Below the pieces are notes generated by a model. It did no database searches and was not told where the DNA came from. It saw only the letters and a list, made by a program, of their open reading frames with translations. A stretch of DNA of 38,359 nt, from contig JAGVLQ010000011.1 in assembly GCA_020054235.1 (NCBI GenBank), positions 1 to 38,359 of the forward strand, written 5' to 3'. Each line of letters starts with the position of its first letter. Positions within the stretch are counted from its first letter, which is position 1. Made by a program: the position numbers and the translations under genes. This document shows positions 21,263-27,465 of the stretch, in pieces. Source of the DNA: Candidatus Babeliales bacterium (GTDB lineage Bacteria > Babelota > Babeliae > Babelales > JACPOV01).

Positions 21263-21402
21263 GTCTACGTTTATCCGGGCCTTCAGGCTTGGCAAACTTC
21301 GACTGGCGCGGCCAGTAAAAGGTTGAAATTAATAAGCTTTAAGTTACACTGAGCGTTATCAGTTTCTGAATCTTATCAAAAGATTTTATCTGAAATTAAT
21401 GT

Positions 21403-21480
21403 GTCCCTGTCGTCTAGCCCGGTCTAGGACATCGCCCTTTCACGGCGAAAACATGGGTTCGAATCCCATCAGGGACGCCA
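21403..21480 (+). tRNA. trnE: tRNA-Glu (UUC), likely integration target
   Basis: A full cloverleaf with encoded CCA. The acceptor stem pairs GTCCCTG (21403-21409) with CAGGGAC (21470-21476), discriminator G. The anticodon stem TCGCC/GGCGA encloses CTTTCAC, giving anticodon UUC. The D arm TCTAGCCCGGTCTAGGACA is typical of tRNA-Glu. It probably shares the tRNA-Lys transcript 140 bases upstream. Its last 12 bases (21469-21480) also encode the C-terminus and stop of the serine recombinase on the other strand, as expected for an element integrated into the tRNA 3' end. Confidence 0.97.
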
Positions 21481-22926
21481 TAGTGTATAATCGGCGTTTT
21501 CCAGTAGTACATCAAACGGTTTATTAGCCTCCCAGACGACATTCTCATCTTTCAATTGTAAGTTCGATAGTAAAAACTTGAGAAGCACTCTTTTTTCCTC
21601 AACTTCAGAACTTACAAAAAGATCGTGCGAGCGATTGGCTAGATCTATAATATGTTTTGTGGTGATAAAGTAGTTATCATCTGCTTTTTGTAATTGCTCT
21701 AAACGGATAGCAATATCGGTCACTTGGGTCCTGAGGTTTTGGTAAAATCTGTCATACTCACTCTCAGTAATTCTCCCTTTGAGTTTATCCATGTATAAAT
21801 TATCAAGCATAGAAGTCAGTGATTTGTGCTCCTTGATGAGCTTATCGTACTGTTGCTTTTGAAATTCGATTTTATCTTTATGAGTCTGTTCTAACGTTTC
21901 TTTTATTTGCTCGGCAATCTCTACGGGCATTTGCATGCGTTTAAACACGGTAGCCAACTGCCGGGTAATCTCTTCTTCTCGCAACCATTTTGCTCCATGC
22001 TTACCGTTGTATTGCGTGCAATGGTAATAAACAAAGCCCTTATGCTTTTCTGGTGTTACGGATAATCCACAGTCTGCGCAGCGAATAAGGCCACGGTAGA
22101 TGTAAGGTTTGCCGGCGTATTTATATTTTTTCTTGTTATAACTTTTTTTTACGTCATCCACTTGTTGGAATAATGCTTGGCTGATGAGAGGTGGGTATTT
22201 GTGCGGGTACTGTTTTTCTTTAACGACCATAACCCCATAATAAAAATGATTTTTTAATACTTTATCAAGAAAGCTTACCGTCCAGTTGTTGCCGTAATCA
22301 TGTTTTATTTTGTTGCATAAGAGCGCCATGGAATAAGCGCCCGTTGCATAAAGCTCAAAGGCTCGTCTGACAATGTGGGCTGCATAATCATCAATAACAA
22401 TCTCTTTGGTTGAATCGTTTATTGCTTTATTGATGTAACCGTAGGGTGCTTTGCTTATCCATTCACCATTACGTAGTTTTTGTTCTATGGCGCGCTTTAC
22501 ATTGTCGCCAATGGCATCGGAATAATATTTTGCAAGGCCAAGGCTGATACCAAATTGGAACTTTTCTACGGCTGAAATTTTGCTGTTAATGATTTGGCCT
22601 TCAGAGGTGAAATGCAACTCAATTTCGTCTTGTAAAGCTTTTTCATAAAGCGCTGAAATACGTTTGTCAAAAACATTGCGTGATAATCTATCTACTTTAT
22701 CACAACAGACGGCGATTTTTTCTTTATGCTCTAAAATGTTATCAATAATTTTATCAAAGGCCGTGCGCTTAGTTTTGTAAGCACTTTCATCAAAGCTACA
22801 TATTTGTATGATTTCAAAACCTTTGCGTTGACAGTATTGCTCAAGCCGAGCCACTTGGGCAGGTAATGAGTTGCCGGCTTCTTTTTGTTCTTCTGTGCTT
22901 ACACGGGCGATGATGATAGCTTTCAT
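21469..22926 (-). CDS. Large serine recombinase / integrase
   Basis: Site-specific recombinase of 485 residues. The resolvase catalytic domain (residues 1-150) begins MKAIIIARVSTEEQ with nucleophile Ser10 and Arg8, and DRLSR at 79-83. The recombinase domain follows (about 155-265), then a zinc-ribbon with C283, C286 and C303; the fourth ligand of the usual CxxC pair is not Cys (HGAKW follows). A coiled-coil region near 345-420 completes the large serine recombinase plan. The ATG at 22926 is chosen because the fold starts there; a longer frame adds 12 unlikely residues. The final three codons and the TGA lie within the tRNA-Glu 3' end, so the gene end is formed by the attachment site. It probably integrates and excises the adjacent accessory DNA. 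Confidence 0.92.
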   Translation of the reverse strand: MKAIIIARVSTEEQKEAGNSLPAQVARLEQYCQRKGFEIIQICSFDESAYKTKRTAFDKIIDNILEHKEKIAVCCDKVDRLSRNVFDKRISALYEKALQDEIELHFTSEGQIINSKISAVEKFQFGISLGLAKYYSDAIGDNVKRAIEQKLRNGEWISKAPYGYINKAINDSTKEIVIDDYAAHIVRRAFELYATGAYSMALLCNKIKHDYGNNWTVSFLDKVLKNHFYYGVMVVKEKQYPHKYPPLISQALFQQVDDVKKSYNKKKYKYAGKPYIYRGLIRCADCGLSVTPEKHKGFVYYHCTQYNGKHGAKWLREEEITRQLATVFKRMQMPVEIAEQIKETLEQTHKDKIEFQKQQYDKLIKEHKSLTSMLDNLYMDKLKGRITESEYDRFYQNLRTQVTDIAIRLEQLQKADDNYFITTKHIIDLANRSHDLFVSSEVEEKRVLLKFLLSNLQLKDENVVWEANKPFDVLLENADYTLWRP

Positions 22927-23301
22927 AATAAAACTCTTTGCTTTAAAGATTAAGATTAGCAAAGAGTGTACTGGAAAAAATTAATTTGTTGAGCTTTAAA
23001 AATCTTCTTGCAATTATTAACAAAGCGTATAAGCTTCTTTCCTAAGTCATTATAAACAGGAGAAACCCATGGATTGCGATATCATATTTTTTGCGCCAGC
23101 AGCCAGAGCATGCCGAGTGCATCTCTTTGGAATGGGTTCTTTCTTTTCAAAAAAGTTCTAATATTTTTCTAAGACGAATTCATTTCAACCACAAGCTAGC
23201 AGAGCGCTCCTCAAGTGCCCATCGGCATAAGAGCGATTAATTATTTTTGGTAATGAAAAAATTTTCACCAAGAGCATGAGCTCTGTATAAGAAAGTTTTG
23301 T
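22927..23301. other. Spacer upstream of the recombinase
   Basis: A 375-base stretch without a secure gene. It holds one possible 30-residue ORF (listed separately). An 11-base direct or inverted block AAAGAGT / ACTCTTT near 22933-22963 flanks the recombinase leader and might be an operator. An AGAGCATGAGCTCT palindrome-like block lies at 23272-23285. Confidence 0.4.
23069..23161 (+). CDS. Possible 30-residue peptide with strong RBS
   Basis: ATG at 23069 is preceded by AGGAG at a spacing of seven bases, one of the best ribosome-binding sites in the window. The frame encodes a 30-residue peptide (MDCDIIFFAPAARAC, ending FFSKKF) and stops at 23161. No family is recognised. Its setting between a serine recombinase and a phage-like replication initiator leaves room for a small phage or regulatory protein, but size alone makes chance likely. 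Confidence 0.3.
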   Translation: MDCDIIFFAPAARACRVHLFGMGSFFSKKF

Positions 23302-23568
23302 ATGTTAAGAAACCGAACAATGAGTTTGGTTTTGTCTTTTGATGAGCGTAAAAGGCTTGCAACGTTATTTGTTTTGCTTGTTAACGTTCATAAACGAACG
23401 GCTGCTAGTGCGCAGTCACGCCGTAGCACTAAGTGCGGAGGCGGAAAGAAGGCGAAAAGCAAACTCAAAGAAAAAGGCCCGCAGATACACGGGCCTTTAG
23501 TTTTTAAAGTAATAGGTTTTTTGCTAAATAAACTTTTCATTTTTCAAAAGTGGTTGTATGCATGGTAG
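23302..23568 (+). CDS. Doubtful small basic protein
   Basis: An 88-residue frame that is Lys/Arg-rich in the middle (HKRTAASAQSRRSTKCGGGKK). The first 60 residues look protein-like (LSFDERKRLATLFVLLVNV), but the frame then runs through a clear terminator hairpin at 23473-23505 and overlaps the end of the convergent 23524-24282 gene. That argues against the 3' part, so the frame may be truncated or spurious. No family recognised. Confidence 0.25.
   Translation: MLRNRTMSLVLSFDERKRLATLFVLLVNVHKRTAASAQSRRSTKCGGGKKAKSKLKEKGPQIHGPLVFKVIGFLLNKLFIFQKWLYAW
23473..23505. terminator. Terminator hairpin after the 23524-24282 gene
   Basis: AAAGGCCCG (23473-23481) pairs with CGGGCCTTT (23490-23498) around an eight-base loop. 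T-rich sequence follows on both strands; the minus-strand side fits the end of the 23524-24282 gene. Confidence 0.8.
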
Positions 23569-24282
23569 ATTGCTTATATCTATGGTGAAAAAGGTCTCAT
23601 CCATTTTTAATAATAATAATTTTCCTGAAGAAATATATTCAATACCGATATACGTTGCTTTTTCTAGATTAATAGCATCTGAAGATTCAAATACTTGAGA
23701 TATTTCTTTTGGTGTGGGATTCAACCAGGCAGCTAAAACTCCCAATGATGTAGATTTACGTTTATTGTCCCATTCTTCATCAAATAAAGCATCATATTTT
23801 GTTTGAATAATAAGAACCTTCTCATCATTTTTATTAGTACCAATAGTAAAAAAGACTGTATTGTCTTTATATGCAGTAAAGGTATCTACTGTTTTCAATA
23901 TAGATGGTAGTGCAAAAGAAAGAACAGCTTGATCTTCTTTGTTATAAACATCGTAAAAATATCTTTGAGTTGTTGTAATGGGACTTTGGGTTGTCTGATG
24001 TTTGGTTTTTGCAAGTAAGATTAGATGATTTTCATTTTTATAAAAATCTTCAAGAGCTTCCGTATGTTCATTATATAATCGAGTTATATCTTTACTTTCT
24101 TTATTGGGATAAAAATTAAACATATAAGCAGCTAATTTTCCTCTAAACCCATTGTTTTTTTCTTTAATTTTATCTTTTAAACTATCGATTTGATCAAGAG
24201 ATAGTTTAAAAGATGATTCTGCTGGCAAGAGAGATTGTATTAAGCTTAATAAACTTAAGCATAAAAATATTTTTCTTTTCAT
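23524..24282 (-). CDS. Secreted protein of unknown function
   Basis: Unrecognised 252-residue protein with a signal peptide (MKRKIFLCLSLLSLIQSLLPA, cleavage near residue 21). The mature part is charged and mixed alpha/beta, without cysteines until near the end and without repeats. AAAGGG precedes the ATG. It lies between the serine recombinase and the replication initiator, so it may be cargo of the presumed mobile element, or host DNA if the element is shorter than thought. Codon use and AT content match the rest of the genome better than the replication gene does. Confidence 0.75.
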   Translation of the reverse strand: MKRKIFLCLSLLSLIQSLLPAESSFKLSLDQIDSLKDKIKEKNNGFRGKLAAYMFNFYPNKESKDITRLYNEHTEALEDFYKNENHLILLAKTKHQTTQSPITTTQRYFYDVYNKEDQAVLSFALPSILKTVDTFTAYKDNTVFFTIGTNKNDEKVLIIQTKYDALFDEEWDNKRKSTSLGVLAAWLNPTPKEISQVFESSDAINLEKATYIGIEYISSGKLLLLKMDETFFTIDISNLPCIQPLLKNEKFI

Positions 24283-24380
24283 GTTAACCCTTTAATTCTA
24301 CTGTATAGATAAGACTTTTATATCCTATTTATAGTGTATTATTGAAATTAAATAATGTAAATCCATATTGCTTTAGATCA

Positions 24381-24417
24381 GCAAATTGATAATTTTTGGC
24401 TTTGGCAATTTGTCAAT
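24381..24417. repeat. Two imperfect direct repeats upstream of the replication gene
   Basis: GCAAATTGATAAT (24381-24393) and GCAATTTGTCAAT (24405-24417) match at 10 of 13 positions, 24 bases apart, around GGCTTTGGC. They lie about 100 bases before the replication initiator and might be binding sites or an origin. Two copies are too few to be sure. Confidence 0.25.
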
Positions 24418-24516
24418 CCCTTGCCTTTACCGCCCAAACCTGTACCCTAGGTTAAAACATCCGTCGTTGCTTTTTAAGCTATGCCGGACAAGCTAATTCG
24501 CATGCTAATAAATAAT

Positions 24517-25632
24517 ATGATTGACACCATAATCCTCCTTCTACCCCCTAACCAATTCACGATCACCAAGCCAGAGCTCTTTATGCCCCATGCAGGGCTT
24601 ATCCTAAAGGGAAGCGGCATGCCGGGGCTGTATGCCAAGCAAAACCCCACCAAGAAGGAATTAAAAGAGGGAATCTATAAACCTCGCCTGACGCTCTATA
24701 GTTCCCTGCAAAAGCACAACGCCTTTGAGCCACACCTCAAAATAGAGCTTTCATTACCCAAGCTCATATTTGGCAACAACTTTCAAGAACTACGCTATAA
24801 AGATTTTGGCGCCGTAGTGAAAAAACTTGCAATTGTTCTTAGCCAGATGGGTGTGCAAACAAGTGAAGAAATTCTCGCTCATTCCTCTGTTTCAGGAATT
24901 CACTATGCTAAAAATATTCCACTTACTGATGGCACAACGCCGTATCAGTACATAAAGAAAATAAAAGAAGCACAGTTGAGTGGCACCCTTGATGTTAATG
25001 AAACACAATTTAAAAATGATGGCCATAGTTACAAGTGGCACTGCAATGCCTATGAGGTTGTATTTTATGACAAGATAAAAGATTTAGAACAATCATTTAA
25101 ATCAGAAAAGCGTGCGCTAGAAAAAGATAATGCGCTCCAAGCGCCATTATTTAAAAAACTTAAAAAAAGAAAAAAGAAGTTTGAGCTCTTGCGCATGGAA
25201 GTGCGTTTGAATAAGCGGCAAAAAATAAAACAGCTCTTTGCAAAACTTAACATCAAGCATGACCTTAGCTTCAAAAAACTTTTCAAACCAGCGATAGCCC
25301 GTAAAGTATTGTTGCACTATCTTGATAGCCTTTCCGGTAAGCGCTTAGCTCTTCTTGATTACCACGCAAGCTCTGACGTTGATATGCTCACCACATTAAC
25401 CTTAAATAACCTCCATTTATCGCCAAAACAGGTAATTCAACAGTTTGGCCTCAAAAAAACCCTAGAATCAATGAACCTGGGGCAATTAAGGAATCTCTTT
25501 GCTCATTGTTCTTCAGGCTCCTGGCGTCGCCTTCTGGTTGACGCAAATCAAGCAACGCCACCAAAAACTCCTGTGGGCCTAGAAAAAATACGGGAATGTA
25601 TAGAGAAGATGAAAGCCGTGGAGAAGCTTTAA
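24517..25632 (+). CDS. Gene II/X-like phage/plasmid replication initiator
   Basis: Resembles rolling-circle initiators related to filamentous-phage gene II/X proteins (Phage_CRI / Phage_X families), which nick the replicon origin. Visible family-like features in the 371 residues are the N-terminal MIDTIILLLP, the segment LSLPKLIFGNN (78-88), YEVVFYDKIKDL (179-190) and LLRMEVRLNK near 224, in the order expected. A Lys-rich linker precedes the last. The ATG at 24517 is preferred over 24481 because family members begin with MIDT; neither has a good RBS. The 5' third is clearly richer in C and G than its neighbours, a sign of transfer. It lies between the recombinase and the toxin-antitoxin pair. 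The family call is from memory of motifs, not a search. Confidence 0.6.
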   Translation: MIDTIILLLPPNQFTITKPELFMPHAGLILKGSGMPGLYAKQNPTKKELKEGIYKPRLTLYSSLQKHNAFEPHLKIELSLPKLIFGNNFQELRYKDFGAVVKKLAIVLSQMGVQTSEEILAHSSVSGIHYAKNIPLTDGTTPYQYIKKIKEAQLSGTLDVNETQFKNDGHSYKWHCNAYEVVFYDKIKDLEQSFKSEKRALEKDNALQAPLFKKLKKRKKKFELLRMEVRLNKRQKIKQLFAKLNIKHDLSFKKLFKPAIARKVLLHYLDSLSGKRLALLDYHASSDVDMLTTLTLNNLHLSPKQVIQQFGLKKTLESMNLGQLRNLFAHCSSGSWRRLLVDANQATPPKTPVGLEKIRECIEKMKAVEKL

Positions 25633-25675
25633 ATGTTTAGTTTGGTTTCTAGATATTGTTGAAAGCGTTTAGGCT

Positions 25676-25978
25676 TTATTTTTTTGCTGGTTGTACAGCA
25701 AGTGAATATCCCATAGCATTAAGTAATGAAGTAACATTTGTTAATTTAGGATTTCCTTTTTTGGAAAGAATGCGATAAAGGTTTTCTCTGCTGATGTTTG
25801 ATTTTTGTGCAAGCTTTGTCATTTCTATGCCCTGTGCTTCACAAACATTTTTTAATGCAAGCAAGAAGATGTGGGGATCTTTATCTGCAAGGGCTACATT
25901 AAGATAGGCAGTTGCAAGTTTAGGGTCTTGCAAATCATCTAATAATTTTTCTTGGTAATCTCTAAATTTTCTTTTCAT
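25676..25978 (-). CDS. HigA-like antitoxin (HI1420 type)
   Basis: Antitoxin of 100 residues of the addiction-module antidote group. The N-terminal DLQDPKLATAYLNVALADKD is followed by a Cro/C1-type helix-turn-helix (ALKNVCEAQGIEMTKLAQKSNISRENLYRILS, about 41-72) and GNPKLTNVTSLLNAMGY, which match that family's pattern closely. It would neutralise the toxin and repress the operon. Its ATG overlaps the toxin stop by four bases; the toxin comes first, the order of HigBA systems. It lies next to the replication gene, where a TA pair can stabilise a mobile replicon. Confidence 0.88.
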   Translation of the reverse strand: MKRKFRDYQEKLLDDLQDPKLATAYLNVALADKDPHIFLLALKNVCEAQGIEMTKLAQKSNISRENLYRILSKKGNPKLTNVTSLLNAMGYSLAVQPAKK

Positions 25979-26304
25979 AATAATTCCTTATAATCAAGCC
26001 AATATTTTACTGCTTTTGCAATATCTTTTTTTTGGCTTTTTTTATCTCCTCCAGTGAGCAGCACAACAATCGTTGTACCTTGTTTGCCAAAATAGATTCT
26101 GTAACCGGGCCCATAATTTATTCTTAACTCCCAAATGCCACCCATTCCCTTTAATATTTTTGCGTCACCAAAATTTCCAATCCTTATCCGATCTAGTCTA
26201 TTTTTGATAATAGCCTGGGTCATAAGGTCGAGGTCATCTTCCCATTCAGAGTAGGGCTCTTTTCCAGAGTCTGTAGAGTAAATAATAATTTTAATAAAGC
26301 TCAT
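25975..26304 (-). CDS. RelE/HigB-like toxin (Gp49/HI1419 type)
   Basis: Toxin of 109 residues in the RelE/ParE superfamily, phage-derived Gp49-like. Members usually cut ribosome-bound mRNA. Visible family elements are the N-terminal strand IIIYSTDSGKEPYSEWEDDL, the helix with IKNRLDRIRIGNFGDAK, and the core IWELRINYGPGYRIYFGKQG followed by VVLLTGGDKKSQKKDIAKA. All are intact, so it is probably active. First gene of a two-gene operon with the antitoxin; the promoter should lie in 26305-26440, where binding by the antitoxin is expected. Confidence 0.9.
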   Translation of the reverse strand: MSFIKIIIYSTDSGKEPYSEWEDDLDLMTQAIIKNRLDRIRIGNFGDAKILKGMGGIWELRINYGPGYRIYFGKQGTTIVVLLTGGDKKSQKKDIAKAVKYWLDYKELL

Positions 26305-26532
26305 AGTATCTTTACTGTAGCATAAAGGTCACATGCCTAGCAAGTAAATTTATAGTTTAATAAAAAACAGCTCAAATATCGTTTGAATGCTTGATAAGGT
26401 TATGGTATGATCTAAAGAGTTGTTCCTGAATGTATTTTTTTGTTGACGCCATACATCCGTTATTTTTTCAAAATGATCGAATGTCTCTGGCAGGCAACAT
26501 CAAATCTCTTCATAGTGGATATTTTAACGAAA

Positions 26533-27465
26533 ATGTTTATATATTTTTTAAGTATTGCGCTTTGTTTTTTTATGCCAGCCATTGGCACGACAAATATACC
26601 TCTTGAATATGAAAAATATTTGCCTGACTTTTTATCTGAAATTACCTATCCGGAAAAATCAAAACTCCTTATCTTTCAGCCTTCTAAAAATAAAAAAGTT
26701 ATGTATTTAGCAGCATATCATACGGATGATTTTAATAGCATAGAGCGGCAAGCAATCAAAAAAATTCTTACTACAGAGCGCCCTGATCTATGCATTTTGG
26801 AGGGAATTCCAACTTCTGAAGGTTTAAATCCTCAATGGATTATTGAGACTGCACATAATCTTTATCAAAAAAAAGTGGGTGGAGAAAATACCTATGCTGC
26901 CTATTTTTGTCACCAATTCAATATTCCATTTATAGGTGGAGAAATAGATCATTCTCTTTTTTTTAATAAGTTATTAGAAAGGGGACACTCCAAAAAAGAT
27001 ATTGTATTTTTTATGCTTCTGCAGCAAATACCTTTTTGGGACAGAGATAATAAAATAGATGTTGAAAATCAAAAGAAGCAATTTGAATTATTTATGCATG
27101 ATGCAGTAGCAAGCTGGTTTAAAGTTAAAATAGATTATACTCTTGAAGAATTTTTAACGTGGTATCAAAACCACTACCGTAAAGCTTATAATTCAATTGA
27201 TTTTAAGTGGAAAGAAGCTCAGGATCAATCGTGGACTGATAGGCGTACTGGCGCATGTATGCATCAAAAAATTGGTGCAGATTGCATGAATATACGAGAT
27301 AATCACATCATATTAGCCATACGAAGGTCTCTTGAGCGCTACAATAAAATTTTAGTTATTTTTGGTGCAGCTCCAACGGGGAATCACTATGTGTGGCAAA
27401 AAGAAGCCTTAGAATCATTTTTGGGAACTCCCAACGAGATAGAACTTACATCGGTTCTAGAATAA
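26533..27465 (+). CDS. Exported TraB/PrgY-like protein
   Basis: Probable member of the TraB/GumN-like (EreA/ChaN-like) superfamily, based on fold-level pattern. A strand-loop AAYHTDDFNSIERQ near residue 60 precedes LCILEGIP (86-93), matching the first strand and PD-x-[LV]-E region, and a C-terminal helix-strand AIRRSLERYNKILVIFGAA is in the right place. The family usually ends this strand with GxxH; here the sequence is GAAPTGNH, so the normal histidine position is changed. The ATG at 26533 starts a signal peptide (MFIYFLSIALCFFMPAI); the open frame extends upstream from a TTG at 26440 without an RBS. The 310-residue product is likely periplasmic or exported. Function unknown; catalytic activity doubtful. 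Confidence 0.6.
   Translation: MFIYFLSIALCFFMPAIGTTNIPLEYEKYLPDFLSEITYPEKSKLLIFQPSKNKKVMYLAAYHTDDFNSIERQAIKKILTTERPDLCILEGIPTSEGLNPQWIIETAHNLYQKKVGGENTYAAYFCHQFNIPFIGGEIDHSLFFNKLLERGHSKKDIVFFMLLQQIPFWDRDNKIDVENQKKQFELFMHDAVASWFKVKIDYTLEEFLTWYQNHYRKAYNSIDFKWKEAQDQSWTDRRTGACMHQKIGADCMNIRDNHIILAIRRSLERYNKILVIFGAAPTGNHYVWQKEALESFLGTPNEIELTSVLE

Follow-up and report, generated by a model that had tools for sequence, protein, structure and literature searches.

Can a serine integrase use the end of a tRNA gene as its attachment site, and what becomes of its own gene when it does? The question is raised by a 38,359-nt stretch of DNA from a Candidatus Babeliales bacterium (contig JAGVLQ010000011.1, the whole stretch being referred to here as the window), part of a 1.25 Mb genome in 29 contigs, in which a serine recombinase gene reads toward a tRNA-Glu gene and stops inside it. 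In a 2015 paper, serine integrases were described as having no known specificity for tRNA genes (PMC4383910). A sequence-only reading of the window had proposed that the recombinase belongs to a mobile element at this tRNA, together with a replication initiator and a toxin-antitoxin pair. Taken as a whole, we find it highly probable that the locus holds a 4,971-bp circle in integrated form, with a tRNA-targeting serine integrase and a split gene. Going beyond the earlier proposal, the insertion splits the integrase gene itself, and integrases of this family as a rule target tRNAs.

The integrated element occupies window positions 21474-26451 (Table 1). An intact tRNA stands at one end and a displaced fragment of its 3' end at the other, the signature of a tRNA-gene island; the Islander signature also asks for a tyrosine integrase, and the integrase here is a serine recombinase. 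The sequence-only reading had drawn the right boundary at 26304 and proposed a search for a second tRNA-Glu end downstream of 25632. That second copy, attR, places the boundary 147 bp further, at 26451, past both the initiator gene (rep) and the toxin-antitoxin pair, and it is preceded by an arm of the attP site (P arm) and a tail that are conserved in other elements. No long direct repeat was found at the window element, the shared core being 7 bp. In the predicted circle, 26444 would be joined to 21474 (GTTGACGCCATAGTG).

The insertion of such an element is visible in a pair of genomes from one genus, of which G048 carries a tRNA-Glu element and G045 has none. Their sequences match up to the end of the tRNA and resume after a 10.4 kb insert; the insertion is clean and uses the tRNA-Glu position seen in the window. 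The attL of G048 reads AGGGACGCCA and, across the junction, TACTTGATC; its attR reads TATGTGACGCCA and then TACTTCGCT; the empty site in G045 reads AGGGACGCCA and then GTCTTCGCT. Far ends could be located for 17 elements, in which the core consists of the final 5-10 nt of the tRNA. The resolved attL sites are all alike, and in the resolved elements identity appears confined to this short core of 5-10 nt, with differing attP and attB arms.

These cores bear on whether the serine recombinase made the insertion at all. Since tRNA 3' ends are classical targets of tyrosine integrases (PMC4383910) and a tyrosine recombinase is also present in some related elements, the serine gene might be a passenger and the insertion the work of a different enzyme, such as a tyrosine integrase encoded elsewhere in the genome. 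We judge this very improbable, as the cores are far shorter than the 25-76 bp that one survey gives for tyrosine integrases at tRNA sites (PMC8092301), the serine gene almost always runs across the junction, neither the window element nor that of G048 yielded any other integrase, and the att geometry described below fits serine integrases.

Other boundaries were considered and rejected. The recombinase with ~200 bp does not form the mobile unit, as Rep comes next in sister elements, and an att site near codon 426, hinted at by C-terminal fragments and contig breaks, was discarded because the boundaries lie at the CCA end. Two IMG/VR contigs of 5.6 and 5.9 kb, candidates for free small circles, are without terminal repeats and look like phage fragments. 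The gene to the right of attR (window 26440-27465) has no homologue in 17 related genomes, so the right side offers no synteny; its TTG start overlaps attR, and the real start is probably further in.

The recombinase carries the three domains expected of a large serine integrase, Resolvase (PF00239, 1.2e-21), Recombinase (PF07508, 1.4e-11) and Zn-ribbon (PF13408, 7.4e-07), and matches phrog_95 ('integrase') at 3.3e-72. Residues R8, V9 and S10 are invariant in the family, S10 being the catalytic serine, and the protein can on these features be classed as a large serine integrase that is predicted to catalyze recombination between attP and attB. The structure of the A118 integrase aligns with residues 166-470, so the integrase fold is complete before the tRNA junction. 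The last residues and the stop codon are read from antisense tRNA-Glu, the codon at the tRNA end being Trp (antisense of CCA); across the family the stop falls within the tRNA or past it.

Joining the window ends in silico produces a single open reading frame (ORF) of 533 codons, stop to stop, that runs through the integrase and the core into QQKNTFRNNSLDHTITLSSIQTIFELFFIKL. The att core lies inside the integrase gene, and integration changes the C-terminus of the protein. The detached tail is gapless across eight elements of clade 1, the window's own among the three main clades of the integrase tree. In codons 12-31, which lie beyond the P arm, these eight elements have 0 stops in the integrase frame and 5-13 in the other five frames; the identities at the three codon positions are 0.49/0.60/0.33, and the observed score was reached by 0 of 2000 shuffles; the L061 tails, which are frame-shifted, were left out of this coding test. 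With a profile built from the seven other tails, the window tail ranked first among 974 Trp-codon starts in the whole window, scoring 39.7 with a runner-up at 0.0.

A skeptical account would accept the element and treat its tail as P arm DNA that is in frame by chance, the split then being meaningless for the protein. The residues FR[TN] of the tail do coincide with the GTTCGAA DNA motif, and one array (in G069, below) has P arms recurring without the rest of the tail. Past the P arm, however, eight elements keep the integrase frame and no other open, with protein-level conservation in it, and unsplit relatives have long tails, many of which end in -LVA, -LAA, -LCA or -KAA, making a chance frame unlikely. 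Both states of the gene are also found in phage contigs. L221 reads into a tRNA-like end, by eye apparently a tmRNA 3' end, and L211 has a tail; the two share 90% identity as far as the core, beyond which they diverge. L222 compares likewise with L226 and L227, with versus without a tRNA or tmRNA end.

How the tail might act is suggested by integration-dependent immunity in mycobacteriophages, where attP lies inside a gene and a stop at attL removes a C-terminal tail of 20-35 residues that is often degron-like (PMC8092301). The gene split there is the repressor and the integrase is a tyrosine enzyme, whereas in the window the integrase gene itself is split. In one version of our explanation, integration would similarly remove a degradation tag and leave a stable integrase, much as the mycobacteriophage repressors are truncated at attL (PMC8092301). 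About 15 of 19 unsplit tails of relatives outside the phylum Dependentiae (hand-picked from 30 loci, some being near-copies) end in [AVCS]A, versus 2 of 71 tRNA-terminated ends. The window tail ends in -FFIKL, and a degron tail was rejected for this element; the [AVCS]A ending was not seen among the clade 1 Dependentiae tails examined. We consider the degradation-tag version possible but doubtful. As an observation in its own right, unsplit integrase 3' ends (L208-L318) often read LVA, LAA, LCA, LSA or KAA, a likeness to ssrA-type degradation tags.

Integrase matches occur in 42 of 101 genomes of the phylum Dependentiae, and the layout seen in the window recurs among them. Because 38 of the 43 distinct full-length recombinases in the phylum likewise end antisense inside a tRNA 3' end (Asp 13, Arg 10, Glu 7, Gln 6, Met 1, Asn 1), the overlap of integrase and tRNA is not due to chance. 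At least 17 switches of target tRNA are needed on the integrase tree, which is not congruent with host families. Among the 80 best relatives in GTDB, 59 overlap a tRNA or tmRNA and 5 run off their contig; several of the remaining 16 are unsplit copies with tails. Their hosts include Patescibacteria, Chlamydiae, Rickettsiales, other Alphaproteobacteria, Legionella and more, and relatives of the same layout are present across many phyla of host-dependent bacteria. A peptide scan of IMG/VR and GTDB with a single protein returned no close relatives, whereas alignment-based searches did find relatives.

The same survey speaks to whether the recombinase is instead a fixed neighbor of the tRNA, a decayed and vertically inherited relic. 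Many C-terminal fragments persist at tRNAs, some copies contain stops and tandem accretion is common, all of which a relic would explain. Such a relic is nonetheless hard to reconcile with occupied and empty tRNA-Glu sites within one genus, with the repeated target changes on a tree that departs from host families, or with the four nearly full-length integrase copies in the window's own genome, three without an internal stop, and we hold it to be highly unlikely. Remnants of ~50-70 C-terminal integrase codons lie at tRNA ends without a full integrase in L055, L057, L058, L062 and L066 and are probably traces of older insertions. At L049 (G069:C8), five near-identical copies of P arm plus core are spaced 0.7-1.5 kb apart, with far cores 14360, 15072, 15914, 16713 and 18256 nt from tRNA-Asp and the full tail only at the last; the array resembles small cassettes without an integrase.

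We compared the att sites with the published serine-integrase model, in which A118-type integrases have a motif for the zinc-ribbon domain (ZD) at attP positions 16-24 and 5 bp further in for attB (PMC3783163). With the crossover centered at -6/-5, the corresponding motif falls at positions 13-19 in attB and 16-24 in attP. Left P arms have GTTC at 29-30 nt, and right P arms have the mirrored TC.GA at bases 11-15 after CCA, with T11 in 98% and C12 in 74% of 47 arms. A scan of 29 offsets in 17 elements peaked at 5 bp (0.407; maximum of 1000 shuffles, 0.367), most clearly in the two clades other than clade 1. As far as sequence can tell, the att geometry matches the published model, with the ZD motif 5 bp further out in attP, and in our best model the T-loop GTTCGAA is most likely what the zinc-ribbon domain recognizes.

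Several observations weigh against this picture. In clade 1 itself the 5-bp peak is indistinct (0.37 versus 0.38 at offset 0, with offsets 4-6 similar), and because every tRNA has a conserved T-loop, only the P arms inform the offset test. Support from arm symmetry for a crossover at -6/-5 is weak (0.36, the 95% null being 0.35), no conserved motif is seen in the right half of attB, and a sister element on contig C5 of the same genome mismatches its tRNA at -6, which argues against this center unless the site has mutated since; that element has 5 nt in common with its tRNA, compared with the 7-bp core in the window. A 92% identical integrase copy (L034 11789, G000:C14) joins a protein-coding ORF at ACGCCATAG in place of a tRNA, possibly a secondary site or a rearrangement. 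Finally, no circle or read junction was seen for the window's own genome.

Based on these data, we propose recombination by the integrase between attP and the tRNA-Glu 3' end, with a crossover in the terminal 5-7 nt (-CCA) of the tRNA and with the T-loop read by the zinc-ribbon domain. This loop is common to nearly all tRNAs, so the integrase family would be able to move between tRNA genes. With attP inside the 3' part of the integrase gene, the enzyme made from the free circle would carry the conserved C-terminal tail; integration would shift the tail to attR, and the integrase would then end in the antisense tRNA, which would supply its stop and stay intact as a tRNA. Because the tail is displaced and the stop comes from the antisense tRNA, the circle and integrated states would make different integrases. 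Replication of the circle would fall to Rep, and stabilization of the element to the toxin-antitoxin pair. The two ends, the relative's empty site, the split of the gene, the conservation of the tail as coding sequence and the att geometry can be read from the sequences; catalysis, reading of the T-loop by the zinc ribbon, the role of the tail and that of Rep are inferences. We regard as evenly balanced the broader proposal of a T-loop-addressed family, cutting at CCA, in which attP within the integrase's own gene acts as a state sensor that controls integrase stability or direction; such a family would span Dependentiae, Patescibacteria, Chlamydiae, Rickettsiales and phages, in tailed (circle) and tail-less (integrated) forms.

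Table 1. Features of the integrated element and its attachment sites, in window coordinates.
Feature	Position	Strand	Remarks
tRNA-Glu (ttc)	21403-21480	+	ARAGORN; target gene, intact; 3' half is the left half of attB
T-loop GTTCGAA, proposed attB zinc-ribbon (ZD) motif	21457-21463	+	begins 24 nt from CCA end
Large serine integrase, body	21469-22926	-	ATG start; ORF open to TTG at 22962 (ORF 21469-22962)
attL core GACGCCA	21474-21480	+	last 7 nt of tRNA-Glu, common to attR
Right P arm, mirrored ZD motif position	21491-21499	-	bases 11-19 after CCA, inside integrase coding sequence
Apparent signal-peptide protein, no family match	23524-24282	-	absent from sister element on C5
Rep, candidate replication initiator	24481-25632	+	conserved start near 24517
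Antitoxin (PF21716, helix-turn-helix)	25676-25978	-	family match; same pair in G048 element
Toxin (Gp49-like, phrog_3445)	25975-26304	-	family match; same pair in G048 element
Detached C-terminal integrase tail (WRQQKNTFRNNSLDHTITLSSIQTIFELFFIKL, stop)	26350-26451	-	continuous with integrase ORF only in circle
Left P arm ZD motif GTTCCTGAA	26422-26430	+	begins 30 nt from core end
attR core GACGCCA	26445-26451	+	displaced copy of tRNA-Glu 3' end

The rep ORF is real, is conserved beside related recombinases and co-occurs with this integrase clade, lying directly next to the integrase in the C5 sister element; it is a candidate replication protein for which the gene II/X-like label is tentative, and Pfam gave no match. 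One of 13 Rep homologues weakly matched phrog_702, 'replication protein' (2.7e-6). A confident fold model from a deeper alignment reached a predicted local distance difference test score of 81 (the first model was poor) and matched four unnamed viral proteins and nothing in the PDB, and a search of IMG/VR with the Rep alignment found nothing. The predicted toxin-antitoxin pair held up, the adjacent toxin and helix-turn-helix antitoxin families (25676-26304) indicating a type II system. As the sequence-only reading had also stated, no structural, mobilization or packaging genes were found in the element: window 21474-26451 yielded no relaxase or conjugation genes, and none of the element ORFs tested belongs to a filamentous-phage coat or assembly family.

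Related elements differ in cargo. The G048 element has integrase, Rep and toxin-antitoxin in common with the window and additionally encodes a multicopper oxidase and an outer-membrane efflux protein, which together with a DUF326 gene form an apparent copper-handling cargo (L038 6814-10647). Primase or helicase genes occur in L178, L172 and L174, from the other two clades, and in L047 from clade 1; a scan of L182 found neither. A SpoVG-like gene, a helix-turn-helix gene and a tyrosine recombinase lie directly upstream of the serine integrase in L204 (6098-9503, a Legionella adelaidensis plasmid) and L182 (3370-5442), the Dependentiae genes being judged partly by eye. Palindromic repeats (GTCTTCGCT..AGCTTCGTCTGGC and similar), which resemble repetitive extragenic palindromic sequences or miniature inverted-repeat transposable elements, start directly after tRNA CCA ends across the phylum; they occur at window 21263-21315 and after the CCA of many tRNAs (L076, L080, L089, L164).

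The window integrase is like the large serine integrases of phages (A118/LI, Bxb1, phiC31) in domain order, catalytic serine, short core and 5-bp ZD shift. It differs in that its family uses tRNA 3' ends as attB, with several tRNA isotypes within one clade, and in having attP in the 3' part of the integrase gene and an extra tail beyond the A118 C-terminus. Integration into a tRNA also splits the integrase gene of SSV-type archaeal integrases, tyrosine recombinases of an archaeal virus, at a point far into the gene. Partial precedents exist for parts of the arrangement. In the serine-integrase integrative and conjugative elements (ICEs) at rumA in Streptococcus, integration swaps the 3' ends of the target and integrase genes and changes the integrase C-terminus (PMC4701971). 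The window shares that change; the rumA ICEs alter a protein gene as their target, whereas here tRNA-Glu is left intact and the tail is conserved and detached. As far as the account of Dehalococcoides goes (PMC3146451), DsiB is a serine recombinase specific for the tRNA-like gene ssrA whose islands show direct 3'-end repeats and tandem accretion. These islands differ from the window in a CcrB-like enzyme with a DsiA partner, a 20-bp repeat and a crossover reported in the T-loop, and that account describes no integrase split of the kind present in the window element.

A tRNA-targeting serine integrase family spread across many phyla could account for a large share of gene flow among intracellular and ultra-small bacteria. 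Under the T-loop model the specificity of these integrases becomes directly testable, and integrases with a site in nearly every bacterium may become available. The split gene, in turn, illustrates a way in which an integrase could sense whether it is integrated.

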